A DNA stretch of 64,000 nt from positions 2,356,001-2,420,000 of the forward strand of contig CP114121.1 in the NCBI GenBank assembly GCA_029959195.1, in the 5' to 3' direction. This stretch comes from Dictyophora rubrovolvata (Eukaryota > Basidiomycota > Agaricomycetes > Phallales > Phallaceae). Positions 12,663-51,318 of the stretch are shown piece by piece. The notes beneath the pieces were generated by a model. It made no database searches. It was given only the letters and a program-made list of their open reading frames with translations, and was not told the DNA's origin. Made by a program: the position numbers and the translations under genes. Numbering within the stretch: the stretch's first letter is position 1; every line of letters starts with the position of its first letter.

Positions 12663-13836
12663 AATAGAACGGATGACAGTTGAGTATCAAGAGGATAAGA
12701 TAGCACAAATAGTCGTTATATAACCTTTTTGATCAAGAATACAAGATGACGTTTTGGTGCACATTACAGCGTATGACGGCAAGGGATGTTCCGGGTGGCG
12801 TCGTAAGTTGAGAACTTAATTTTTTTGGATACAAATATGTAAGACCGGAGAGAAGTTGATACTTGATAGTGGTCGGCACGGCATTTTCCGTGCCGTAACG
12901 AAGATGATTTGGCACTTGAAAAACCCCGAGCTTCTGGCCAAATACGCAATTATTGCTGAATGAAATGCGCTCAGGTAAGTAAAGCTAGTGGCGTTGTAGC
13001 TCGAAATACCGTACCATGACGGATACGTCGAGTTGACGAATAATCATCGTCGGGACATGCTGGCATCAATAAATGCATCCCGAGCACGATCCCCACGCCG
13101 GACTCGCACGCTTGACGACGAACTGCCAAAGACATTCTTGCATACTGAACGGGTTGCGATAATAAGATCGCGCCGTCTTCCGCGGTCCAGCGGGGATGAG
13201 GTCAATTGCTGAGCGCTGAGCGCGCGGACGACGGAGCCAAGTTCTTCAAATTTAGGCTTAAAGGAAAGGTAAACTGTGTGAAATCAGTTTTATTTTGGAT
13301 AAACTGACAAACTAGCACCCAATGAACACATGAGCTGAGGCCACCCGAGGTTTTTTCAATTTTACAACTACGCGAGCGAAACAACGGCAATCACAAAGAG
13401 ATTATTCCCGTCCTTTTGCTCATGAGGAAATGATGTGTTATGATAGCAGTGTTGCAGACGAGGCCTACAAAAGTTAGTAACAAAACCCTTGCGACAGGTA
13501 TATGTATGGCATGAGGTTTCAGCGGACAATGACAATGTTCAGATGCACTAGTGAAGCTGCCAAATCAGAGATACCGTGGACAATAGTAACTTGTTCCGCA
13601 GCCCACGAGTCGTTGTTCAAGCTGGGACTCTTGGCCGGGACGCGGGGTCTCTCGATCCTGGTCGAGGGCCGAGGCTGGTGGACGCGTGGACGGGAAATAC
13701 ATAGCGTAACCTTTACGTAACCATTTGGTCACGCTGCATAACGAATTTACCAACCGGTCAGTGGTCACCGAAACGAGACCGCTCATCTTCACGAACATTC
13801 TTTCAAACTTCAAGTTGTGGTCTTCACGTTGGCAAC
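12663..13836. other. No gene; one 8-bp hairpin
   Basis: This is the upstream region of the DUF6533 gene and of the first F-box gene. A perfect 8-bp inverted repeat (cggcacgg / ccgtgccg, 6-nt loop) lies at 12874-12895. Open frames here have no family match that I recognise. Confidence 0.5.
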
Positions 13837-15408
13837 ATGTCTGACGAGCGTATTACCTTCAATTTGCCCCACACAATCCCTACAACTATCACAATGTTTC
13901 CTCCTGAACTCTTGACTGTCATTTTCTACTTCGTCGGCCCCTCTTCACTGAGAAATCCTTATCCATATCTGCCACTCAGTCTGGTCTGTCGTCGTTGGCG
14001 GGATATCGTACTCAATGATCCAAGATTCTGGACCGTCCTTTACTTTGACAGGAATGTTCGACCAGACCTTCATAACGAAGTCGTCCATCGCAGCAACTCT
14101 CATGGGCTAGACATCTTTTTGTCTTCAAAAGGAATCCAGGAACATGAAACAACAACCCACCTATTCTCCCGTGTTTATGAATTCATTCACTCTAATTCTC
14201 TCCAATCGCGGATCAAAAATTTACTCCTTCCCAGGATATCGCATCACTCATTTAGCATGGAGCAATTGGCAAAATGTTCTTCTCCCCAGCTGGAAAGGTT
14301 AACAGGTACCTTGAGTATATACGAGGAGCATTTGGTCAAATTTATCGTTAACTCTCGTTTGCGATACGCTGAGCTTCCTTGGTCAATATTGTTGGATCTC
14401 CGCAGCCAGAACTTACTTCATCACCTGTCTCATATAGAATGGTTGAAGCTGGGCAAGTCCAGGTTGTATCCCGAGGATGTCGTTCTTCAAGTCCGCGATA
14501 TTTTAGAAAACATGCCCAACCTGCAAATTCTGATTTTATCCTGGAAGGAAAAAGAGAAATATGTAATCGACAACGAGTCGTCTCGACCAGTCATCCAGTT
14601 ACCAAAGTTGCGACTCCTTACCTTGGATCTCGATCACAAGTACGGGGATTTATGGACGTTCCGCGCGCCTAACCTGGATTATCTCTCCATTTTGGATCTT
14701 GGCACAAGACGTTTTCACAACTGGCAGCTTCTGAAATCCATCGATTTTTCAAAAATCAATAGCGTACTCATTAAAATTGACGAAGTTCCGATGGAGGATC
14801 CCGTCTATGATGAGCCAGGTATACAGCGCATTGCCTGCATATCGGGTTCGGAACACACACTACTCGATTGTTCAGTGTTTGAAGACTTTCATCATCGAGG
14901 TTTGGAGTCACGGGTCGGAGTGAATGACTATCTAGACTTACCACCCAAAAACAGCTTCCATATCCCCATTTCGTGGATATTGGAGCACAAAAAGTTCTAT
15001 GATATTATGAGGCTGACTACAAACCTTGTCGAACTTACGTTAAATTATGGGGCTTGCAAGAATGGCCCCAGTTTTTTCCTCTTTCTTTCCGGAATATTGA
15101 GCAAAGCCTGCACGACAATTACGCAACTAAATGTGGTACGAGGTCGCAGCTTCGTTGAAGCTTGTGCTCTCCTCAAGAATGGACTTACGGCTCCCCGCTT
15201 AGAACGACTCGTGTATCAGAATGCATCCAAGCTTAACCGTACCGCCTTTATACCTAGGCGTGTGAAAGCGCTGCAAGATGCTAGGCTCAAAGCTGGCTCT
15301 CAACCGTTGAAGATCCTCGATCTCAGGAACTTTGCGAACATTCCTCCTGCACGAGTTCAAGAAATTGAAGACTTGGGAGTACAGTTGATTCAAACAAATA
15401 ACTTTTGA
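13837..15408 (+). CDS. F-box protein with C-terminal leucine-rich region (523 aa)
   Basis: Single-exon gene. The F-box is at about residues 20-65: FPPELLTVIFYFVG, then LVCRRWRDIVLNDPRFW. F-box proteins recruit substrates to SCF (Skp1-cullin) ubiquitin ligases. The rest is leucine-rich with degenerate repeat-like strands (LPKLRLLTLDLD, LVELTLNY, PLKILDLRNF), typical of Agaricomycete F-box/LRR-like proteins, which are expanded and mostly unassigned. It is followed by a tandem paralogue at 15724. The start is chosen at the first ATG; a second ATG at residue 20, immediately before the F-box, is also possible. Confidence 0.88.
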   Translation: MSDERITFNLPHTIPTTITMFPPELLTVIFYFVGPSSLRNPYPYLPLSLVCRRWRDIVLNDPRFWTVLYFDRNVRPDLHNEVVHRSNSHGLDIFLSSKGIQEHETTTHLFSRVYEFIHSNSLQSRIKNLLLPRISHHSFSMEQLAKCSSPQLERLTGTLSIYEEHLVKFIVNSRLRYAELPWSILLDLRSQNLLHHLSHIEWLKLGKSRLYPEDVVLQVRDILENMPNLQILILSWKEKEKYVIDNESSRPVIQLPKLRLLTLDLDHKYGDLWTFRAPNLDYLSILDLGTRRFHNWQLLKSIDFSKINSVLIKIDEVPMEDPVYDEPGIQRIACISGSEHTLLDCSVFEDFHHRGLESRVGVNDYLDLPPKNSFHIPISWILEHKKFYDIMRLTTNLVELTLNYGACKNGPSFFLFLSGILSKACTTITQLNVVRGRSFVEACALLKNGLTAPRLERLVYQNASKLNRTAFIPRRVKALQDARLKAGSQPLKILDLRNFANIPPARVQEIEDLGVQLIQTNNF

Positions 15409-15723
15409 AACCGAATACACGACTGCCGCGTGCGCACTTCTTTCGTTCAGCAACGAGCTTTCAGATTCGTACTTTTATTATAATAAAAACTTACCTTATT
15501 CACGTTTCGTATTTTGTATAAACAAAATCTCTCTCAAAATCAAGTAATTCAGCTTCGTAATATGTACGTATTGTTCAGACTCCATCTGGCAGTCGCTAAA
15601 ACACGTAAATGGACACGGTCACGAGTGCAACCGTGACAACTCTTTTTCAATAAATAACAGAGATTTGATTCCTTATTCACGAATATTCTTTCGACCCTAG
15701 TTGTAACCTATACATCCAAAGAC
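15409..15723. other. Spacer between tandem F-box genes
   Basis: AT-rich 3' and 5' flanking DNA. No feature recognised. Confidence 0.5.
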
Positions 15724-17284
15724 ATGTCTGACACAACTGCTGCAGTCATCAGGGTATTTCCTGTCGAGCTCTTAACTTTCATCTTTTGCTTTGTCGGCCC
15801 CTCTTCATGGATAAATCCTTACCCGTATCTGCCACTTTGCTGGGTTTGCCGCCGCTGGAGAGATATCGTATTAAATGACCCGAGATTTTGGTCTGTTCTG
15901 AACATAGGCAAGGATATTGATTGGGGCCTTAATCAAGAAGTCATCCATCGCTCCAACTCTCGTGCTCTAGACATCATGATGTTTAGTTCAGAAATGGACA
16001 AGAAGAGATTGGGGCCATGCAATCGGGATGTGCTACGCCGTTTCGACGAATTTGCATGCTCTAATCACCAACTCCGAGCCCTGATTAGGAGTTTATTTTG
16101 CGCCAAGAGAGCGGCGTTTGTCAACGAATTTCGCTTTGGGGGCTTGCCAAACCTTTCTTTTCCTCAACTGGAGAGGTTAACCAGTTCTTCAGCTTTAAAC
16201 ACTACGGACGGGAAGCTTTTGGTCGCGCTTATCGCCACCTCTCGTCTACGATACGCGGAGCTTCCTTGGGTTGCATTGTTAAGTCTTCACACGCAGAAGC
16301 TGCTACATCATTTATCCCATGTTGAATGGTTGAGGATAAGGATCCCGCTGCCCGAGAGCACCATTCTTCCTGAGATTCTGGAAAACTTACCCAACCTGCA
16401 AATTTTGATTTTGTCGCAGAATTTTTTCGAACAGAATTCCAGCCACGGGAACATTTGTAAAGATTCTCAATCACTGATAAAGTTACCGAGGTTACGACTC
16501 TTAAGTTTGGATCTCCATCGTCGTCAACCTTGGGCATTCCATGCACCCAATTTGGATTATCTTTGCGTTTTGAGTCTCGGTGGAGAGAGTTTTCATGACT
16601 TGGACCTTTTGAAGAGTATCAATTTTTCGGAAATCAATAGCATACTCATTGGAATTCATGAAAATATTGCAAAAAATTACCCTCGCAGTGCTTCATTGAA
16701 GACGCCTTCCGCCGGTTCCGTGGCTTGCATATCCGGCTCGGATTGTCTACACCCCCACTGTCTGCGATTTTCGAGGTTCCATTATGGGGGCTTAGAGTCG
16801 CGAGCTGCCGTGGATGGCCATCTAGATCTACCACCCAAAAACTCTTTCCATCTCTCTATGCCATGGGCAGATTTCCAGCCCTTCGATGTTGTTCTGGAGC
16901 GAGCTACAAACCTCGTCGTACTCACGGTGAACTAATATGCAGCCACCAAAATCGACTCTGAATTTTCCTTATTTTTGGTCAGAATATTGGACAGTGTCGG
17001 TACGAGAATTACGAGGCTAAATTTAACCCATGGTCGCAACTTTGTCGAAGTTTGCACTCTCCTCGAGGATGGACGTAGAGCTTCCCGCTTGGAACGACTC
17101 ACGTACCACAGTGCGTTTACGATAAGGAGTACCGCTTTTATACCTGGTCGCGTGGAAAAACTACAGAATGCCAGACTCGGCGCTGGCTCTTCGCCTTTGA
17201 AAATCCTCGAACTGGGGAACTGCGGACATGCCTTCTTGGGGGGTTCAAAAAATCGAGGATTTGGGAATACAGTTGATTCAATAG
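15724..17284 (+). pseudogene. F-box protein paralogue, broken in its C-terminal quarter
   Basis: A tandem copy of the preceding gene, with the same F-box (LVCRRWRDIVLNDPRFW as VCRRWRDIVLNDPRFW) and the same leucine-rich body. The frame is open for 403 codons to TAA at 16933-16935, where the intact paralogue reads LTLNYGACK. The same frame then continues with clear homology (LERLTYHSAF, TAFIPGRVEKLQ). A second change near 17220-17240, at a run of six G, shifts the homologous ending (VQKIEDLGIQLIQ, stop 17282-17284) to another frame. A 403-residue protein that keeps the F-box could still be made, so loss of function is inferred, not shown. Confidence 0.8.
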
Positions 17285-25738: not shown

Positions 25739-26875
25739 CTAACGGTGTTTTCCCACTTGAACATCCTTTTTATAATCCTTCAAACCCATATTCGGACAGC
25801 TAGTCGGGGGAATAGGTACTTGAAAAAGATTTTCATAGGCTTTAATATGTTCCTCCAAGGCAGTGTTGAAAAAGTCATCAGCTGTCACCGGTTGAGTGGG
25901 CGGTGGAGTCGCTGTAAACGTAGTGGCATTCAAAGGAAGATACGTAACACCGGATTGTTTCGAATTATTTTCCCCCACTGCTATAAGAGCTTCCACTTCA
26001 GATCTTCCGTGTTCAATGGTTCCATAAAGAGCGGGGATTTGGTACATGTTTTGATTGGGCTTCAAATCCTTTCGAATACACCACGCTTTGGGGACAATAT
26101 CTAACGTGTTGATGAAGTCGGTGTTCCAGGAGCGGTAAACAGGACCAGTAATAATTTGAGGAAAAGCTTGGCTGAAGCGGTTGACGAATATGTCATTTCC
26201 TGGGGTTGGTCCCGCCGTAGGATAGGTCAGGACGTTAGCAACACGCAGAATGTTTTCTGACTTGAAAGCGAGGGCAACGGTTGGGGATAATGCGCCACCT
26301 AGACTATGACCGGTAAAGATCAAAGTCGCGTCAGAAGGTAGGGTAATGAGATAACGGTAGAGTGTGTGTACAACAGGACCGCCGACAGCGTTAGGCGGGG
26401 CGGGGTAGGTGATTATTGTATGGGAGGCTACGCCAGTTCCATAGGCAACATAAGCATTGCTGGGAACAGTTGTAGTAGCCTTAACAGGTGGGCTCCTGAT
26501 ACCGGATGAGACCCATTGATCAAAGCTGATGACACTACGAACTTCGAAGTCTTCCAACAAGTCGTAAAGGTCCGCCGTTCCAGCGATTGCGACAACATAG
26601 GTGTTATGTTTCGTCCCGTCGGGAAATTCCAAGGTTGGATGATTGGCGACGTACCAAGCGTTGTCGGGACGGGTATTGGGAAGATCAATGGCTTTGTAGA
26701 CTACGGGACCCCAAGACAGCCTCCACGCAGGATCAAGTGTTCTAATTAGACCTGGAATTTGAGCTTGAAGGGCCTTTTGCAGCGTAGATTGGTATCCTGT
26801 GCAGTGTCTGACTGCATTCGATGCCAGTGAAACTCCAAATACTTGTTGGAAACAATCATAACCTGCCGAAGACAT
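25739..26875 (-). CDS. Class 3 lipase (alpha/beta hydrolase), 378 aa
   Basis: Uninterrupted frame of 378 codons. It carries the lipase nucleophile elbow TGHSLGGAL with Ser191, the acid Asp259 in NTLDIVPKAW and a likely His343 in EEHIKAY. The oxyanion-side segment YVVAIAGTADLYD (about 93-105) fits the lipase_3 family, which hydrolyses triacylglycerol or related esters. The N-terminus (MSSAGYDCFQQV) lacks a signal peptide, so the protein is probably intracellular; an undetected upstream exon could change this. The length is close to other basidiomycete members. The frame has no damage. Confidence 0.88.
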   Translation of the reverse strand: MSSAGYDCFQQVFGVSLASNAVRHCTGYQSTLQKALQAQIPGLIRTLDPAWRLSWGPVVYKAIDLPNTRPDNAWYVANHPTLEFPDGTKHNTYVVAIAGTADLYDLLEDFEVRSVISFDQWVSSGIRSPPVKATTTVPSNAYVAYGTGVASHTIITYPAPPNAVGGPVVHTLYRYLITLPSDATLIFTGHSLGGALSPTVALAFKSENILRVANVLTYPTAGPTPGNDIFVNRFSQAFPQIITGPVYRSWNTDFINTLDIVPKAWCIRKDLKPNQNMYQIPALYGTIEHGRSEVEALIAVGENNSKQSGVTYLPLNATTFTATPPPTQPVTADDFFNTALEEHIKAYENLFQVPIPPTSCPNMGLKDYKKDVQVGKHR

Positions 26876-41639: not shown

Positions 41640-43162
41640 ACCCTTCAGAGAAATCTTCTAATAGTGACTTATTGTTATCCATGTCCCAGAGCTTCACTTC
41701 ATGGTCCTTCATCCACGCAAAATATTTTCCATCTGGAGATAGCTGCCCGGAAATTGTTTTAATCCAACCCACTTCTTTCCCTGTCATGGCGTCAAAAATC
41801 TCTGTTCCTTCCATTGAGATACATATGACATGTCTCCCATTTGCAGAGAAGGCGATGGTATCAACGACTGAAAGCCGGGAGTGAGCATCACGCCTGAAAG
41901 GACCAGCTAATACCTGCATTGGCAAGCCTGGTTGGCATTCTCGAATTTCCAGGTACGGAACAAAGGAATCCCCGGCGTATGCAACGACGAGTCTGGTGCC
42001 CGATGATGAAAAAGAAAGAGCCGACACACTCCATTGAACGCTGTTTGGTTCATCAACAACCCGACGTTTGTGAATGTCCCAGATTTTGAGCGTCCCTCGG
42101 GGATTACCAGAGATGAGATAGTTGGTAGAATCGGAGAATGCCAGCGCGGAGACAGCATCATCCGGCGAGTTATCTAGAATAAGCTGTCTTCTTGATTCGG
42201 AATCCCGAAGATGAAGTCCGTAATGATATGTGAGACCATTCGGATCCGACCCCCCACGTACACAACGTCCTGGACAGAAAAGGCCAGCACTGCAGAATAC
42301 AGCCTTGTCCTAGATTCAAAAACAATGGTGTTCATTGTTGTAGTGTCCCAAATTTGGAGTAAACCATGGTGAAAAACAAGAACAAGGTTGGCCCCATGAA
42401 GCCAAAGCTTTCTGACGGACATGTTTTCAAAAGACTGTGTACCTCAAACCGGAATAACAGCTTTTCCTCCCTCAAGACACGAATTTCGGTGACAATGTTG
42501 TCAGTGAAACATGAAAATGCCCAAAAATAACATGCATAAACAAATGTGAGGGAATCGCTGTTGTCACCCGTTCATGAAAATCAGGTACGTCTCGATTGGA
42601 GAGATGCGAGGTTTCCAGGTTACAGATGTTGAACCGTAGCATCCGATTCATTACTTTGAGACATCCCAACGTGAAGAAGCCTTGATCGGAAATGTAGACG
42701 TGGTATCGGTTACTACTTTCGATGAAAAAATCGAAAAGCGACGTATGAAGAGGCCGAATGGGAGTAAACAAGTCATTGACACCAAGGAAGAGGGACCCAA
42801 AGGGATATAGTACTTCTTGAACATTCGTAATTAATTCCTGAAGAATATTTTGTAATGCATCTACTGAAAGAGGTTCGCGTGCCATTAAAATAGCAGAAAC
42901 AATAGTTTTAAAGTTTTCCACGAATTGCAGATCCTCACACTCCCGCTGGCTCGAAATTATATCCTCATAGAGTTTGTATAACGAAGATGACGAACTCGAA
43001 ACGCAAGCCATCCATCGTTTTTGTACTATCGACGAATATCGAACATCCGGGTCAATAAACCGACAGACAGTGTCCGCCCATTGAAACAGACCTTCGGCAC
43101 GTTTTGCTAGTATTTGAGGCCAACTTTCTTCTATCTTGTTCAACGTTGGTGCTATTGGTTTG

Positions 43163-43382
43163 TGTTGAGTTACAGTCACACTGTGACTGCGTCACAGTGT
43201 ATATAGTTACATACGCGCACCGCGCCTATTTCCTCACTCGTGTTGAGTACACGTAGTGAGGTACGTTCCTTTTATAGTTTAGCTTTTCTTTCTATTATTA
43301 ATCACTGTACCTAGCAATATTCTTTAGGTATGCTAATATTCTATCACTCGTGTTGAGTACACGTAGTGAGCAATATTCTTTA
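43163..43382. mobile_element. Solo LTR, 220 bp, inside the NLR gene
   Basis: Starts tgttgagttacag, ends caatattcttta, and is bordered by the 5-bp direct repeat gtttg (43158-43162, 43383-43387). A second copy with its own 5-bp repeat lies at 52575-52778. It contains two near-palindromic hairpins of 28 bp (ctcact...agtgag) and an internal direct repeat gcaatattctttag. Copia or Gypsy type cannot be told without internal sequence. The two copies are about 90% alike, so neither is very old. Confidence 0.75.
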
Positions 43383-44866
43383 GTTTGAGCCGATTTAAGA
43401 CATAGCTATGAATGTCAGAAAGAGTTTCGTCCGTCGCAATATCACCCATCCATATGCATTGGGTAGCTTCTGGGTTGTCCCGCAGAAGTTCTATATCTTG
43501 TTCTGGACGGGAGGTAATAATGATACGATAATTGGCTGGCAGTTCAGAGCACCGTCGAAAGAGTAAATCCAAAATAGTTGCGCGCTCTCCACGATTTCCG
43601 CTCTCATCTAACGCATCAATAACAATAACAACAGGTCCAACCGTTGTTACATTCTTTGAAGGTTTAGCAATGAGCTCATCAAATTGTATCACTGGATCCA
43701 TCGATGTCCTGATTGCAGTGTCTTGGATAATCTTCACCAAGCTTTCCCACCACGACACATCGCTATCGGCCAACCTACGAGAAATAGTGCTGAAAAGAAG
43801 ATTACACCAGTCTTTGGAACTTCTGTTGAAGCAAAACATGGACCCGAGTCGATTCTGTCTCTTGAATATTTCCGCGATCGTGTGAGCAACGGCCGATTTT
43901 CCCGTGCCAGCTTGCCCACTAAGAACAAGTATTCGTTGGAGTGCGTCACTGTTGACCCATTCCATTATCTCATTGATCATAAACATCCTTTTTCGGAAAG
44001 GAATCCAGCGTCCCGCATATATGGCATTTCATTCATAAGTATCAAATCCTCTGAACATTATCATGTGAATAAAGTTGCAGACGTCATCAAATTGGACTGG
44101 ACGAACTTGTCTCAGCAGTAGTGTCCGCGATTCTAAGTGTCACAATGCCAATCTCAAGAGTGATAGAACTGGTAATGACGCTCAGATGATGATCCAACTT
44201 TTCGTTGAACGATTTGATTTTATCATTAATGCTGTCCCCTCTCCAGACCTTTCCAACTAAAAAAAAGCTCGTTTCAATAGGACATGAAGTTTTAGATCAT
44301 GAAGCCAAATCAAATGAAACACCGCCTATACTCCCAGTACCATATTCTCTTATGAAGTAGGCGCATTCAATCGTCTGTTGAGCCAGTAACAAAAGAGTCT
44401 TGCTTTGAATAGCCGTAAGTTCACGCAGTCGTTCGGCATCGGTAATGTAATCGTAAACTTCCTTTAACTTTTCACATAATTTCCCGGCACATTCATTACG
44501 GCTTTTCTGAGAGAGAATCATCTAAATTTGATTTGATAGCTATTCAAATGTCAGGCAGATAAAACCGAGTGTGTAGTACCTTTGGAATAAGAGACAGAAT
44601 GCTCCACGCCAACCTCGCGAAGGGATTAAGATTCAACCTCTGTCAAATCACCAACTAAAGTTATAACATACCCCAGAGGCCGTGTCTATTACATTCATGA
44701 AAACCTGGAATTGAGACAAAAATGCGGACCAGGCATCCTCTTCCAGGTTCTCAATAGCTTTCGAGGACGTTCCCATTGACAAGATCGACAGCGTTTGAGC
44801 AGTTGATTTTGAAGCCTCGGCCAACATGACTGGAAGAATATTGGACATTCCTTCGATGCTAAACAT

Positions 44867-45739
44867 CAATTGAGAATCCTTAGATATCTCTAATTTGCAT
44901 GCTCCCGTATTTCATTGTAACTATCCGAAGATAATAGCTAAATGTCGTAGCTATATATACAATCGGAAAAACTATGAAGATATTTTGTTTGAGGCTGTCT
45001 AGTCTCCGTGGAGCGGGTCCTGGTGCTGATTTTGTAAGAAGGAGGGTGGGGGAATAATATGATATTTAGCAAGTGTGTGTGTGTTGATATAAAACCAACA
45101 ACAACAAAAAAATGATGATCCTAAGATCGTGTGTGTGTGAGGGGGACGATAAATGTGAGTTGCGATAAAATGGTGAGTCAATATGCCATCGATAATACAG
45201 CGATGATAATCTGTTTTAAAGTTAGTAAGGCTTCAACGACAATACGAATCGTTGAGTTTATACTCCGAGGCCTCACTCAGAGTAATCCAAAGAAATAGAC
45301 GTGAGCGTAGAAATAGACTAGAGATGAAACTTGACTTGAACTTGACTTAAACTAAACTAAACTTGAGACAACCATTCCGGTAGATTGCTGCTGTTACAAT
45401 TATTTACATGCAGTATATATACCATTTGGAAATATAAAGGAAAGCAGAATGATCACTCATCATTCGCCATGATAACAAAAGGAAACAAAAAGAGAACAAA
45501 GAAACAAAAGAAAAAGGAGAAAACAATGGAGGATACAATTACAGAAAAAGGGGAATCGCATATGTGGTTAGGGGGAATAGGAGAAATATGTTGAAACAAA
45601 AGAGAAACAAAAGAGAAACAAAAAGAGATCAAAAGAAAACAATGAAACTGGATTCCCAGCATAGCTTTACCAAAATCACCATCTGGCACTTCTTGCACTA
45701 CCTCTTACCCAAAACTATAATCTTACCATCCCAAACTTC
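44867..45739. other. No gene; low-complexity purine tract
   Basis: Short GT microsatellites lie near 45074 and 45129. 45475-45650 is an A-rich purine stretch with repeated gaaacaaaag units. Open frames there have biased composition and no domain. Confidence 0.5.
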
Positions 45740-46318
45740 TTACTGATCTGGTTCTTGTTGACGAGATCTTCTTCTTCGTGGCTGTGGCGCAATAATAATG
45801 GCTATGGCAACGCTTAACAATACCAGATCTTGAACGAGATTGGATTGGAGATCGGAATAGGAAGGGAGGGTTTGATTTCCAACAGAGTAGTCGGGAGGGG
45901 ATGGGATGGCAGATAGGGGTGCGTCTATGAATAAGAATTGAGTATAACTTCGAAATTGATGACGAAAGACCAGTCTCCAGATTGATTCTTCTTGACGATT
46001 TGTTGAAAGGAACTCGACAAACTCATACGATTCGTCCATGACATTGACATTGGTTCGTTCGTACAGGGTTAAAGCTTGTGGATATCCTATCTCCAGATCA
46101 TCATAAGGAATAGTAATCTCCATTAGTGGCTGTGGAGTAATCGGAAGCATTGTGGAGGGGTCGACATCAATTTCAGAAACAAGAGTATTGTAAACGCGAA
46201 GTCGTGAGAGGAAATTAGGGTTGGGTCTGAATCTGAGAGAAGAACGATATTCAAAAGGGAAGAAAGGGAGTTGAAAAAGGGGAATAGGGGAAGTAGGAGT
46301 ATTGTTATTGTTCAACAT
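45740..46318 (-). CDS. Unknown protein Y (192 aa), X/Y family
   Basis: Single-exon intact frame. It is unrecognised, but homologous to Y' at 48965 and more remotely to X and X'. The shared pattern is I-D-(V/x)-x-x-x-(T/M)-L-P, later SYEFVEFL, W-R-L-V-F, and FLFIDAPLSAIP. Near the C-terminus a hydrophobic stretch (DLVLLSVAIAIIIA, about 166-179) followed by RRRRSR looks like a tail anchor with positive residues after it. It lies 74 bp downstream of X on the same strand, so the two could be expressed together. Function unknown. Confidence 0.62.
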   Translation of the reverse strand: MLNNNNTPTSPIPLFQLPFFPFEYRSSLRFRPNPNFLSRLRVYNTLVSEIDVDPSTMLPITPQPLMEITIPYDDLEIGYPQALTLYERTNVNVMDESYEFVEFLSTNRQEESIWRLVFRHQFRSYTQFLFIDAPLSAIPSPPDYSVGNQTLPSYSDLQSNLVQDLVLLSVAIAIIIAPQPRRRRSRQQEPDQ

Positions 46319-46392
46319 GATGATATGAGTTAACCAAAATTTTTAAGCGCTAATGAAATGTCCAGAAAGAAAGAAGGAGATGAAATACAAAT

Positions 46393-47055
46393 CTAATCGC
46401 TTATCCTAATCAAGCCTTTTGTCCTAATTTCGTCCAAGAAGGTTTGAGCAAACGCATCGGATCTTTCAGAAGGATCATTTGGATGGAGAAGAGGGGAGAG
46501 ATATTGGTCTGGCGAATGGGGTGAAAAACGAGACATTTGAGGATCTACAGGAACAAGATTGGCTGGTCTATATGGGCTATGTTTTTGCGTTTTTATGTTT
46601 TTCATGACAACCCAATGACTTGGCACATCTAGAACCAGGAATGTAAATTCGAACCCTTCTTGTGTCACTAACCAAATCCGATATGAGTCTTTAACGGCTG
46701 ATTCGGGTGTAGAATAAACGTTGATAATTGTAAACCAGTCTAATCGTTCCTCGATATAAACCTTTTCTCCAAACATGAGACCGGGGTGAACCAAATCCGA
46801 ACTTCTGCATTGACGAATAATAAGAGGTGGAGGGAACTTCGGGAGGTACATTTCTTCGTCAATGTCAAGACTCGCATATTGGGAACTATAGATATAAAGA
46901 GTCGTATGCAGATCCAAATCGTATGTCCTTGGACTGGAAGGCGAAAAACGAAAAGGTGATATAGATTCATCGTCGGAGGGGGGTAATGACTTGGTGGGAG
47001 ATGCTGGAATGGGCAAAGAGATTGATGATGTATAGTGAAATGAAAATGCGGCCAT
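46393..47055 (-). CDS. Unknown protein X (220 aa), X/Y family
   Basis: Single-exon intact frame. Closest relative is X' at 48185 (shared: SPRTYDLDLHTTLY / SPRTHDLDIETTLF; CRSSD; VYIEERLDWFT / VYIEKELRWFT; VYSTPE; DSYRIWL; VLDVPSHW). The N-terminal 40 residues and the tail are Ser/Pro-rich; the middle of about 120 residues looks like a compact beta-rich domain. No signal peptide or membrane helix. The 166-bp repeat at 47179-47344 sits 124 bp upstream of its start. Not recognised as any known family. Confidence 0.65.
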   Translation of the reverse strand: MAAFSFHYTSSISLPIPASPTKSLPPSDDESISPFRFSPSSPRTYDLDLHTTLYIYSSQYASLDIDEEMYLPKFPPPLIIRQCRSSDLVHPGLMFGEKVYIEERLDWFTIINVYSTPESAVKDSYRIWLVTQEGFEFTFLVLDVPSHWVVMKNIKTQKHSPYRPANLVPVDPQMSRFSPHSPDQYLSPLLHPNDPSERSDAFAQTFLDEIRTKGLIRISD

Positions 47056-47178
47056 TTTTCATAAGGGTTTTGATTTCGAGAGGCTGTGGTGTATCGGTTA
47101 AGTTTTTGGTAGTTTGAAACTCCACTTTGAACCAAAAATCAGAACGTTTCCTTATTAGGAAGATTTTGGTGCGCGACA

Positions 47179-47344
47179 GCATGTGGCCTTTGCCGTTTTT
47201 CATAGTATATAGTTAGTAGCCCTAGAGGAGGGATCCCTAAGTTTGTTCTCTTAGGATCCCCTCCCTCTAGGTGAGTTAGTGTTATTCCTAGAATATATCT
47301 TGCTTAGGATCCCCTCCCTCTAGTCTGAGAGAGTAGCCCTGACA
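47179..47344. repeat. 166-bp structured repeat, copy 1
   Basis: Nearly identical to 49572-49736 and in the same orientation: the first 105 or so bases are the same, then about 20 bases differ, then the copies agree again. Inside is a hairpin with 20-nt arms (ctagaggagggatccctaag / cttaggatcccctccctc) and a third copy of the right arm. Together with copy 2 it brackets Z, X' and Y'. Confidence 0.8.
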
Positions 47345-47763
47345 AGAACAACCAGAAAATAATGTTCCGCTAATCATGCAAATATAGTACCTCTAAGTAG
47401 CATATGAATCACACCTTGGCAGCATGAGGTGAGAATTTGATCGCCGAGGGGTCATAATAACCTTGAAAGACTCTCACATACGAAAGCTAGATTATATCAC
47501 CTCCCACTTAAGATCGACTTCCAGTTATTAATTTTATTTTGTGTCAACATCTGATTGGCAGACATTGGCTGCTTTTGAAGTATAGAGCAATCTGCAGCTC
47601 AGAAAATAAAGTAAAGACAGGGTAGAATTAACTATGTAATATATAATGTGTATTAGACATAAGAAGCACCGATGTGCTGGCCAATGCGTGAAGTATATTC
47701 TACGGGAAAAACACTGCGGAACAACCAGCGCTGCCTCAACTTTAACCAATCCTGCCAAAGTAA
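47345..47763. other. Spacer downstream of protein Z
   Basis: AT-rich, no feature recognised. Confidence 0.4.
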
Positions 47764-48117
47764 CTAAGCAATATCCTCTGCTGGAAGTGATAGGCCCAGA
47801 TCTAGTCCTTGCTGTTTTTGTGAAATATGTTCACAAGATAGCGGGACTATCTCTGAATTCCATCCGATGACTTCATCATAGGGACATTTCGGGAAGGCAG
47901 GGTTACAAGCCATGTATGCGATCCAGAATAGATTGACAACCCAATGCCACTCATTGAGATATTTTTGATCTTGATTTACGCAGAGCCATTCATACAAGGA
48001 GCGTGCAATGGTTCTCCAATCTTCCATTGATTCTGGGGGTTCTTCAATATTGATAGCGGTGTTGTGCACCAAAACCTTCTCCAATTGGTGATTAGGCTGC
48101 TTATCCAAAGCGGACAT
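47764..48117 (-). CDS. Unknown protein Z (117 aa)
   Basis: Intact frame, divergent from X' with only 67 bp between the two start codons, so a shared bidirectional promoter is likely. It is Trp-rich and probably helical: RSLYEWLCVNQDQKYLNEWH, then WVVNLFWIAYMACNP. No signal peptide; the W-rich segment could contact a membrane or form a protein interface. No counterpart is present beside X and Y. Not recognised. Confidence 0.5.
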   Translation of the reverse strand: MSALDKQPNHQLEKVLVHNTAINIEEPPESMEDWRTIARSLYEWLCVNQDQKYLNEWHWVVNLFWIAYMACNPAFPKCPYDEVIGWNSEIVPLSCEHISQKQQGLDLGLSLPAEDIA

Positions 48118-48184
48118 TCAAATCCTCCCTTCCTAGAAAGCAACTATCAACTTACCCAAATTCCCTTATTCAAATAACAATAAA

Positions 48185-48832
48185 ATGTTCAATCTTCGTC
48201 TCTCATCCACATTCACGATTAGAAATCCTACCTCTTTCCCAGACACCCAAGATTCTTCCCCAGAAGATGTTATCCCTCCGATATTTCGTTATACTCATGA
48301 TAGTCCTCGTACTCATGATCTGGATATTGAGACTACTTTGTTCACTTATTATTCCCCGACACCTATCCTCCAAATTGACCCCACGACTCTTCTCCCAGTC
48401 TACTCACACAAGGTTCCTAGAAGTATCCATAAATGTCGAAGTTCAGATATCATACATCCCTTCTTGGCATTCGGAAGAGAAGTCTACATCGAGAAGGAAT
48501 TAAGATGGTTTACAGTAACTCATGTTTATTCTACGCCAGAATTAGCCTTACAAGATTCATACCGTGTCTGGTTAACGACACAAGTTGGGTTAGAATACAT
48601 GATAATGGTTCTGGACATTCCTAGTCGATGGATCCTATCATCATGCAATCACCAACTGGTCTTAGGATTCTATCAACCTGCCAATCCCCTTCCCAAAGAA
48701 CTAACAAACTCCTTGTCTAACCATAATTCACCTCCCCTATCTCCGACTTCTTCCGATTTAACAATATGCCCTCTTCGATATCAACAAACAATCCACACAC
48801 TTCGACATATTTGTTCTGGATTCCTAGAATGA
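48185..48832 (+). CDS. Unknown protein X' (215 aa), X/Y family
   Basis: Intact single-exon frame, homologous to X at 46393-47055 over the central domain (CRSSDIIHPFLAFG, VYIEKELRWFTVTHVYSTPE, DSYRVWLTTQVGLEY, VLDIPSRWIL). The two differ at about half the positions, yet both frames are open and hydrophobic positions are kept, which suggests selection on the protein. It is followed 132 bp downstream by Y' on the same strand. Confidence 0.65.
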   Translation: MFNLRLSSTFTIRNPTSFPDTQDSSPEDVIPPIFRYTHDSPRTHDLDIETTLFTYYSPTPILQIDPTTLLPVYSHKVPRSIHKCRSSDIIHPFLAFGREVYIEKELRWFTVTHVYSTPELALQDSYRVWLTTQVGLEYMIMVLDIPSRWILSSCNHQLVLGFYQPANPLPKELTNSLSNHNSPPLSPTSSDLTICPLRYQQTIHTLRHICSGFLE

Positions 48833-48964
48833 GCTTGATCAGTTTGGAACATAATAAAGAACAAAAATAACGTATAAGGGCAAACATCTATTTTAATCAT
48901 CTGGTCTCTTTTTGTTTCGGAGTTCCAAGTTTCTTCAGCCTTACTCTATCCCTTCGCTACCATA

Positions 48965-49561
48965 ATGATTGACCTCACAGCCTCTTACACCATGTCATCA
49001 TCCAATCGCCCATATGGCGATTTCAAAATGGTCATACAAGAATATGTCCTCCACCGAAAAGGACTAATCGATGTCAATGAAGAAACCTTGTTACCCTTTC
49101 ACAATGGGTACATCCAACATACGCTCTACTACGATGATTTAAGGTTACCGCCAATACTTCGTTTATATGATCAATATTATATCAGAGTAAAGGGACATTC
49201 GTATGAACTTGCAGCATATCTACAGATGCATCGAGATGGATGGCTAGCATGGCGACTCATCTTCCAACGATCTGTGCTTTTAGCCAGACAAGTCCTATTC
49301 CTTGATGCCCCTTTAGATGTGTTCCCATACCTGTCAGGGTACGCTAGCGTCGTCCCCTTATTTTTCTACATTTATCTTCAGTTCTGGTCTATTTTATTTA
49401 TTTCCATATTTCTCGTATTCTATCCCATCTCTTGCATTTCCTTCTCCTTCCATATTCCCATTTTTCCTCCAACGGGCGCTGAGCACCTGTTCTCATCAGA
49501 GCCATGGCCTAGGCCCTGGTTAAAAGTCTGGGACCAGCGCGTATCCGCGCCCAGTCCATGA
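48965..49561 (+). CDS. Unknown protein Y' (198 aa), X/Y family
   Basis: Homologous to Y in IDVNEETLLP, YYDDLRLPP, SYELAAYL, WRLIFQRS and FLDAPLDVFP. After residue 118 it departs from Y and becomes very hydrophobic (LFFYIYLQFWSILFISIFLV, FYPISCISFSF), which would give one or two membrane helices; alternatively an unseen intron begins there. The last 30 codons abut the 166-bp repeat at 49572, so the original C-terminus may have been replaced. Confidence 0.55.
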   Translation: MIDLTASYTMSSSNRPYGDFKMVIQEYVLHRKGLIDVNEETLLPFHNGYIQHTLYYDDLRLPPILRLYDQYYIRVKGHSYELAAYLQMHRDGWLAWRLIFQRSVLLARQVLFLDAPLDVFPYLSGYASVVPLFFYIYLQFWSILFISIFLVFYPISCISFSFHIPIFPPTGAEHLFSSEPWPRPWLKVWDQRVSAPSP

Positions 49562-49571
49562 ACTGAAGGCC

Positions 49572-49736
49572 GCATGTGGCCTTTGCCGTTTTTCATAGTA
49601 TATAGTTAGTAGCCCTAGAGGAGGGATCCCTAAGTTTGTTCTCTTAGGATCCCCTCCCTCTAGGTGAGTTAGTATCTCTACTAAATACATTTTACTTAGG
49701 ATCCCCTCCCTCTAGTCTGAGTGAGTAGCCCTGACA
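49572..49736. repeat. 166-bp structured repeat, copy 2
   Basis: Second direct copy of the hairpin repeat at 47179. It starts 11 bp after the stop of Y'. Internal 'agtagccct' occurs near both of its own ends. Confidence 0.8.
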
Positions 49737-49856
49737 TATCCTCCATCACGTGTCGCACCTAGTCTTCGATGTACTTCATCCATCAGGTCCAGTACACCCT
49801 CAAATCCATCCACGCACTCTTCAGTTGGACTCGATTTCTCAAATTTATCTCTCAGG

Positions 49857-51318
49857 AGTTACACCATACCAGATGCTGCAAACTCTCACTCTGTTTCTCC
49901 TGCACCCTCCGTTTCTCCTGCAGCCCCCATTTCTCCTGCAGCCCCTGTTTCTCCTGCACCATCCATCACTTCTCCTGTACCATCCATCACTTCTCCTGCA
50001 CCATCCATCGCTTCTCCTGCACCTTCTGTTTCTCCTGCACCCCTCATTTCTCCTGCTTCTAATATGCTTTCTGGCCCCGTCATCTCCTCACCTTCTACTC
50101 TTATTCCTGCCCCTCGTTTTGCCACTGGTCTGGATCCTCCCAATACCCTTCAGGAAGCCATGCACTATCAAGAATTAGTTAATTATCTATGTCAATATTG
50201 GGATTTGAATCAAGGAAGTCATGACCATATGATGCAGCTATCAAAAGTACATACTATGCTCATTTCTCAGCAGTCTGTTTTTATATGATTTAAAGCTGGA
50301 CCTCAAGTCCCTTCTGCTTGCCTCGGAGGCTTGGCACTTGCATTATCAAGAACAGAGGAAAGAAGATAAGGTGGATTATTCGAAAGAAGAGTGGTTTAAG
50401 ATTCTTAATACTTCTTTTTTTAATCTCATATACTGATATTCGTCAAGAAAAAGGTTGTCCCAAGATTGAGGGCGTTTATGATGAGCCCTAACCTTCAAGC
50501 GTATGTCACGGGCTTAACTACATTCATTACTGTAAGTATATTGCATTTTCACATCTTAGACCACATGACTGATGTTTATAAGGTGGATATCGTTGAACAC
50601 CCTCAAGCCTGGAGTGTTCCTTTGAACATTGTTCGCGATCATTTCGCTGTGCTTAGTTCCGCTATCTCAAATACTTTAACTGATTGGAGGAGTAAAGCAA
50701 AAACAAAAGTAAAGTTTATCTACACATCATCTCTTCACAGTTTACATCATCAATTAGATTTGAGAATTGATTACCATTCTGCATGACTTAGTCTACGTGC
50801 TCGCTCAAAAGATTGCCGGAACCCATATCAGTCTAACCAACCGGCATTTCCAGCGAGCAGCTTTTCTGGTGAGTTTTACATATATTTTCTTACACATTTT
50901 AATGACAGTCAAGTAGAGACACATGTATTTGAGGTATCAGTCTCAGTCTTCATCTTTGGAAGGTAATCAGGGTACATTGAAAGGCACTTTCTAGAGTGAG
51001 GTTGACAAGGGTTTGCACCAGCTGCGTCTTGGGCTTGGCGGATCTGGCTTGGATCCAAAAGTCCTGCTAGCTGGGTAAGTGACCGTTATATCCCTCTTAA
51101 TGTCTCTTTCTCTTTACTATTAATTCCAATTGTTTAGAACTTTGGAAAGTATGTTACAAATGGACCTCCAAGCATATCCACCTCAGCCAGGAGAAAAGGC
51201 TCCCGCAGCTCGAAAAGCTACCCGCTGGGAAACCGACGTGGAGAGTGCCATCCAGCAGTTCGAATACCAACCCCAAGAAATGGCTGACAACGATGGCTCT
51301 GATGTTGACACTTTTTGA
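49857..51318 (+). CDS. Unknown multi-exon gene with SPAP-type proline repeats, partial
   Basis: After an acceptor near 49856 the frame runs SYTIPDAANSHS into about 60 residues of degenerate SPAPS(I/V) repeats (49890-50060, also a DNA minisatellite), then LQEAMHYQELVNYLCQYW. Later segments look like exons of the same gene: YDLKLDLKSLLLASEAW (50283), VPLNIVRDHFAVLSSAIS (50617), LHDLVYVLAQKIAGTHISL (50782), and a C-terminal FEYQPQEMADNDGSDVDTF at 51318. The exon joins and the start are not resolved; some segments need frame changes, so it may be decayed. Family not recognised. Confidence 0.4.

Follow-up and report, generated by a model that had tools for sequence, protein, structure and literature searches.

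The window analysed here, a stretch of 64,000 nucleotides from Dictyophora rubrovolvata (C5:2356001-2420000), carries four related open reading frames, two on the minus strand (45740-46318 and 46393-47055) and two on the plus strand (48185-48832 and 48965-49561), and the question raised by this locus is what kind of genes they are. The preliminary description had proposed them as a mirror-image cluster and a candidate two-component system. All four frames are present, and sequence comparison bears out their pairing as subtypes, X with X' and Y with Y'. As revealed by comparison with the whole genome (28.24 Mb, 11 contigs), they are transposable-element genes, X-Y and X'-Y' being two families of a compact two-gene element; a third family, X3-Y3, is found elsewhere in the genome.

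Two separate insertions at the locus

The features of the locus, in window positions, are:

44916..47178, minus strand: X-Y element copy, 2263 bp; 5' terminus TGTCGCGCACCAAAA at 47178, 3' terminus GTTACA at 44916
45740..46318, minus strand: gene Y, 192 aa; C-terminal part hydrophobic, as is typical of the X-Y family (ORF list and 20 copies)
46393..47055, minus strand: gene X, 220 aa (ORF list and comparison of 20 copies)
47179..47344, plus strand: 166-bp 3' piece of the LTR family of 49332-49736, bordering directly on the X-Y element at its 5' end
47764..48117, minus strand: fifth ORF, a low-copy gene fragment; first 19 codons antisense within the X'-Y' end
48060..49331, plus strand: 5' part of an X'-Y' element (second family); 3' part absent beyond the solo LTR
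48185..48832, plus strand: gene X', 215 aa, open
48965..49331, plus strand: gene Y', native part (residues 1-122); the listed ORF, 48965-49561, continues into the LTR
49332..49736, plus strand: solo LTR, 405 bp, TGTCAGGG...CCCTGACA, flanks ATACC/TATCC

The X-Y and X'-Y' copies are two separate neighbouring element insertions, and since one on the minus strand and one on the plus strand adjoin each other, the mirror image of the supposed cluster is a coincidence. The X-Y copy is flanked by ATGC and ATGA, without a clean 4-bp duplication. The X'-Y' copy begins at 48060 (plus strand) inside a low-copy gene that it cuts, the fifth ORF, which had been described as a fifth small gene of the cluster; this ORF has 5 genome matches, relatives elsewhere (88% and 60%) in longer frames and its first 19 codons inside the X'-Y' element. 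The 166-bp repeat described previously (47179-47344 and 49572-49736) is real. After 49331 the X'-Y' copy is interrupted by the 405-bp solo LTR, and the unmatched flanks of this LTR, together with the absence of the rest of X'-Y' beyond it, suggest recombination or deletion at this point.

The genes had been regarded as free of frame damage, which holds for neither copy: in the X of the window, the C-terminus has shifted frame when compared with the 19 other copies fetched (X ends at 208-210 aa, in one frame, in 17 of the 20 X-Y copies), and Y' is cut after residue 122, its residues ~122-198 being translated solo LTR that matches more than 100 other genomic places. The hydrophobic tails ascribed to the Y genes are confirmed for the X-Y family, where Y reaches residue 180 or beyond in 16 of the 20 fetched copies, and had to be given up for the native end of Y' (one copy, L002) and for Y3 (one copy, L045). 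For Y', the proposed pairing of a soluble with a membrane-attached partner rests on a solo LTR read as protein.

Other features of the window were observed as well. Fragments of an apparently broken NLR-like gene, NACHT domain included, adjoin the elements at 42475-44028 (minus strand); NACHT and Gypsy genes are in keeping with a fungal source. Two successive F-box-like ORFs (the second below the Pfam cut-off) together with a class 3 lipase ORF are located at 13705-16932 and 25742-26875. The strongest GC skew in the 2-kb profile (-0.288) occurs at 48001-50000, a stretch in which the coding strand of X'-Y' is rich in C and which also overlaps a repeat of the CTCCTGCA type (about 49890-50060).

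Families, ends and target duplications

Matches to the X genes of the three families number at least about 185 (counted by hand) and are dispersed over all 11 contigs; the match counts are approximate, as some of the listed rows are pieces of one copy. X itself has at least 81 matches at 58% identity or higher (at least 86% for the first 60), and Y has at least 72 at 81% or higher. For X', at least 44 rows at 71% identity or higher rank ahead of the X-type rows, and X3 is represented by at least 60 rows at 72% or higher. Copies also lie within LTRs and within one another, the pattern that nested insertion would produce. The pairing of two related genes, always in the order X then Y, had been recognised in the window and is conserved in all three families. 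X identity between the families amounts to 27-41%, yet the first 20 bp of the elements are common at 90%. The genes of X-Y and X'-Y' are about 41% (X) and 34% (Y) identical, compared with 91-95% over the last ~530 bp (L002/L008 versus L025), a similarity that points to a 3'-end swap or conversion between families.

Of about 81 rows, 20 of the better preserved were chosen and the 10-kb stretches holding their X-Y were fetched, a choice that favours full-length, open copies. Nearly all of these stretches contain a block of ~2.26 kb that has about 96% identity to the reference copy and the same end bases; in one (L024) the 3' end of the block is lacking. The X-Y element starts with TGTCGCGCACCAAAA and ends with GTTACA. 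The X'-Y' element has the same start, as has the X3-Y3 element of 2.35 kb, which ends with CTTACA, so that all three families, each about 2.2-2.36 kb long, begin with TGTCGCGCACCAAAA and end with TTACA; the inverted-repeat match between the two ends is TGT/ACA only. By eye, a CTCC-NN-GGAG block (GGACYCGCTCCRYGGAGAYT) was observed near the 3' end (L025:6700-6780 and L045:2920-3010), recurring in X-Y and X3-Y3 despite diverged surrounding sequence.

Target duplications were assessed in 29 complete copies at distinct places (20 X-Y, 5 X'-Y' and 4 X3-Y3), with duplicate views and one palindrome arm left out. An exact 4-bp duplication was present in 14 of the 29, and in 24 under a lenient rule allowing decay of the central CG to TG or CA (10 via CpG decay). 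When the flanks were re-paired 2000 times, the corresponding means were 1.78 and 2.86 and the maxima 7 and 10. In 24 of the 29 copies, one side or both had CG in the middle of the duplication, and five copies, including the X-Y copy of the window, were without a matching duplication. Two X-Y copies (L027:4890 and L029:3946) occupy the same site of the 405-bp LTR, with the flank CCGT, which may be a preferred target. On C1, the listed X and Y places between about 875 and 900 kb mirror each other, and two stretches there (L006, C1:879761-883399, and L007, C1:892405-896043) match without a difference across all 3639 bases, one being inverted relative to the other; this region is either one large palindrome or a fold-back created in the assembly.

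With their TG...CA ends and short target duplication the units are similar to LTRs, and they might be solo LTRs from a retrotransposon with coding sequence inside its very long LTRs. The surroundings of the copies make this quite improbable. The duplication surrounds a single unit in the 24 copies, and recurrent adjoining internal sequence was found in 0 of 29, as against a real LTR in the same data, which has common downstream sequence in 2 of 14 full copies. Direct pairs around gag-pol were absent among the 29 complete copies and not evident among the matches listed, which likewise contained no near-identical direct pair at LTR-like spacing; both near-identical local pairs that were checked lack shared flanks and are inverted. 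The X-Y unit thus resembles Gypsy/Ty3 LTR retrotransposons and their solo LTRs in its TG...CA ends and short fixed target duplication, and differs from them in its two conserved ORFs and in that no second LTR or internal region was evident among the 29 complete copies and the matches listed. Furthermore, the duplications made by the local 405-bp LTR family are 5 bp long (3 of 14 full copies show an exact one), in contrast to the 4 bp at CG of X-Y.

The two inverted local X-Y pairs, both with unrelated flanks, are 99.96% (L013/L014, on C4) and 99.8% (L030, C7:1933001-1943000) identical, above the identity of the other fetched copies among themselves (99.2% at most). They may have arisen through local hopping or gene conversion; if local hopping is the cause, a DNA route is favoured.

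Apparent selection on the genes and decay of copies

Across the 20 X-Y copies, changes private to one copy showed a pN/pS of 0.91 in X and 1.16 in Y, and changes shared between copies one of 0.34 and 0.40, respectively. Many of the shared changes lie at CpG and may be recurrent. With CpG sites removed, the small counts of shared changes (7 synonymous and 1 nonsynonymous in X, 1 and 4 in Y) disagree between the two genes, and hence part of the shared synonymous excess comes from recurrent CpG changes. Between families, pN was lower than pS in all six comparisons (pN 0.38-0.51; pS 0.67-0.83, near saturation). Nucleotide identity between families is about equally low in coding and non-coding parts, and selection is therefore visible at the protein level only. 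The outcome for the ratio of nonsynonymous to synonymous change, which had been proposed as a check, is accordingly divided: about 1 for copy-private changes and below 1 for shared and between-family changes. The private changes look neutral, as under free decay, and the others look selected. Taken together, these patterns suggest that the proteins are under selection in the multiplying lineages and that individual copies decay.

These data also bear on the reading of the genes as a host family, a two-component system amplified through duplication. Many X copies do retain open frames, 44 of the first 60 rows listed being free of stops by hand count. Most X' copies, on the other hand, are decayed, with stops in 37 of the first 44 rows listed and 7 stop-free (hand count), the copy-private changes are neutral, and the units have precise ends with target duplications and are inserted into LTRs and into other copies. 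With X genes in at least about 185 places, bounded by mobile-element ends, a host two-component cluster is strongly disfavoured and appears highly improbable.

The X and Y proteins

The description of the proteins as members of an unrecognised family stands. None of the five proteins of the window had a Pfam match at E<=5, nor was a Pfam match obtained for X, Y, X', X3, Y3 or five metagenomic relatives. In profile searches X and Y matched no known transposon or viral protein family, the kind of match that had been named as evidence against a new system, yet the genes behave as those of a transposon. No transposase, integrase, reverse transcriptase or other catalytic domain was recognised in the element. 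Relatives outside the genome, which had been sought as a sign of a genuine family, do exist, but only five metagenomic proteins were found; one matches X at 80% identity along its entire length, and another matches Y at 81% over 69%. Nothing similar was found in the open-access text of PMC, and an unnamed or non-autonomous Repbase or Dfam entry is possible.

As had been proposed from a common sequence pattern, X and Y probably share one domain. Alignment of two small profiles with hhalign gave an E-value of 4.4e-4 and a probability of 34% over 56 columns, and low-confidence AlphaFold models (mean pLDDT 55 for X and 59 for Y) are all-beta with a similar strand order. Fold searches with these models returned weak matches only and no credible one. 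Five acidic residues are invariant across six aligned X rows; a DDE transposase would be expected to combine an acidic triad with an RNase H-like alpha/beta fold.

Partner elements and the probable need for X and Y

An element lacking its own transposition enzyme might be moved by a partner with the same ends. When up to 2 mismatches are allowed, the 15-base 5' terminus occurs at 212 places, compared with 36 for the reversed pattern. Of the best 100 of the 212, ranked by fewest mismatches, 94 are followed by X, X' or X3 at a distance of 60-260 bp, and the other 6 are interrupted copies, three of them seen and three inferred. As the terminus was found only with X in these 94, the rest being apparently interrupted, no separate autonomous partner was seen, and no larger element with the same ends appeared among the best 100. 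Within 1.5 kb of the 26 5' termini in the fetched stretches and the window, the stretches having been chosen by X, there was no 3' terminus, and thus no miniature derivatives were seen. The lack of both larger elements and miniature derivatives speaks for a need for X and Y in cis, and since 94 of the best 100 termini lead into X, both genes appear to be required in cis for multiplication.

Gypsy-type integrases are present in the same fetched stretches, which allows for a non-autonomous element that depends for all its movement on a Gypsy- or Ginger-type integrase supplied in trans and recognising nothing but the TG...CA ends, with X and Y being passengers or serving a role other than mobility, e.g., silencing. 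The TGTNR-type termini and the 4-bp CG-containing duplications would fit such an origin, as these are reported for Ginger1 (PMC2836005). We regard it as unlikely, given that both ORFs persist across three families and that X-less derivatives were seen neither among the best 100 of the 212 termini nor among the 26 fetched ones.

Comparison with known systems and proposed mechanism

TG...CA ends combined with a fixed 4-bp stagger are typical of integrase-type enzymes. L1-type non-LTR elements have two ORFs and keep both, as expected of cis preference. The X-Y element keeps two ORFs like the L1 type and differs from it in having no reverse transcriptase, no A-rich end that could be seen, a fixed 4-bp duplication and intact 5' ends in the copies examined.

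According to Bao, Kapitonov and Jurka (2010, PMC2836005), Ginger1 elements have TGTNR ends, 4-bp CCGG or CCGT target duplications, terminal inverted repeats of 40-270 bp and their own Gypsy-like integrase. X-Y elements resemble Ginger1 in the TGTNR-type 5' end, the few-kb size and the CG-centred 4-bp duplication, here mostly CCGN or ACGN, and are unlike it in that TGT/ACA is the sole inverted part, with no long terminal inverted repeats, and in that no integrase is recognised. IS481EU and other integrase-type DNA transposons share the TGT...ACA ends and, in some families, the 4-bp duplications (PMC10045372).

The element is mobile, as evidenced by discrete ends, target duplications, dispersal and the co-inheritance of X and Y, all of which were observed. 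The reading we consider probable is that of two-gene elements with cis-acting X and Y, joined to the target at CG in an integrase-like manner, with a chemistry that is likely borrowed. Multiplication of a copy would require that the copy itself supply X and Y, and such a cis preference would keep both genes. The two related all-beta proteins, as modelled, probably act together on the element ends or on an intermediate. Integrase-like strand transfer would then join the TG...CA ends to the target across a 4-bp stagger at CG. By their ends and target duplication the elements resemble the products of Gypsy and Ginger integrases, and this putative strand transfer is more likely borrowed from the Gypsy-type integrases of the genome than performed by X or Y. 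Less probable, though appreciable, is that X and Y by themselves suffice for mobility, making this a minimal transposon with two proteins based on a duplicated all-beta domain, in which the TG...CA ends are cut or copied and inserted at CG with a 4-bp stagger by proteins of no known nuclease, integrase or reverse transcriptase fold.

The borrowing element with its own cis-acting proteins would belong among integrase-type mobile elements, with a real chance of being something more. It is unusual for two genes to be kept under selection in at least three families without a recognisable mobility enzyme or a partner sharing the ends. The element is either a parasite of integrases that brings its own helper proteins or the carrier of a new kind of mobility protein. 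In the genome of D. rubrovolvata, at least about 185 places open to annotation as an orphan family of fungal genes turn out to hold genes of a transposon.
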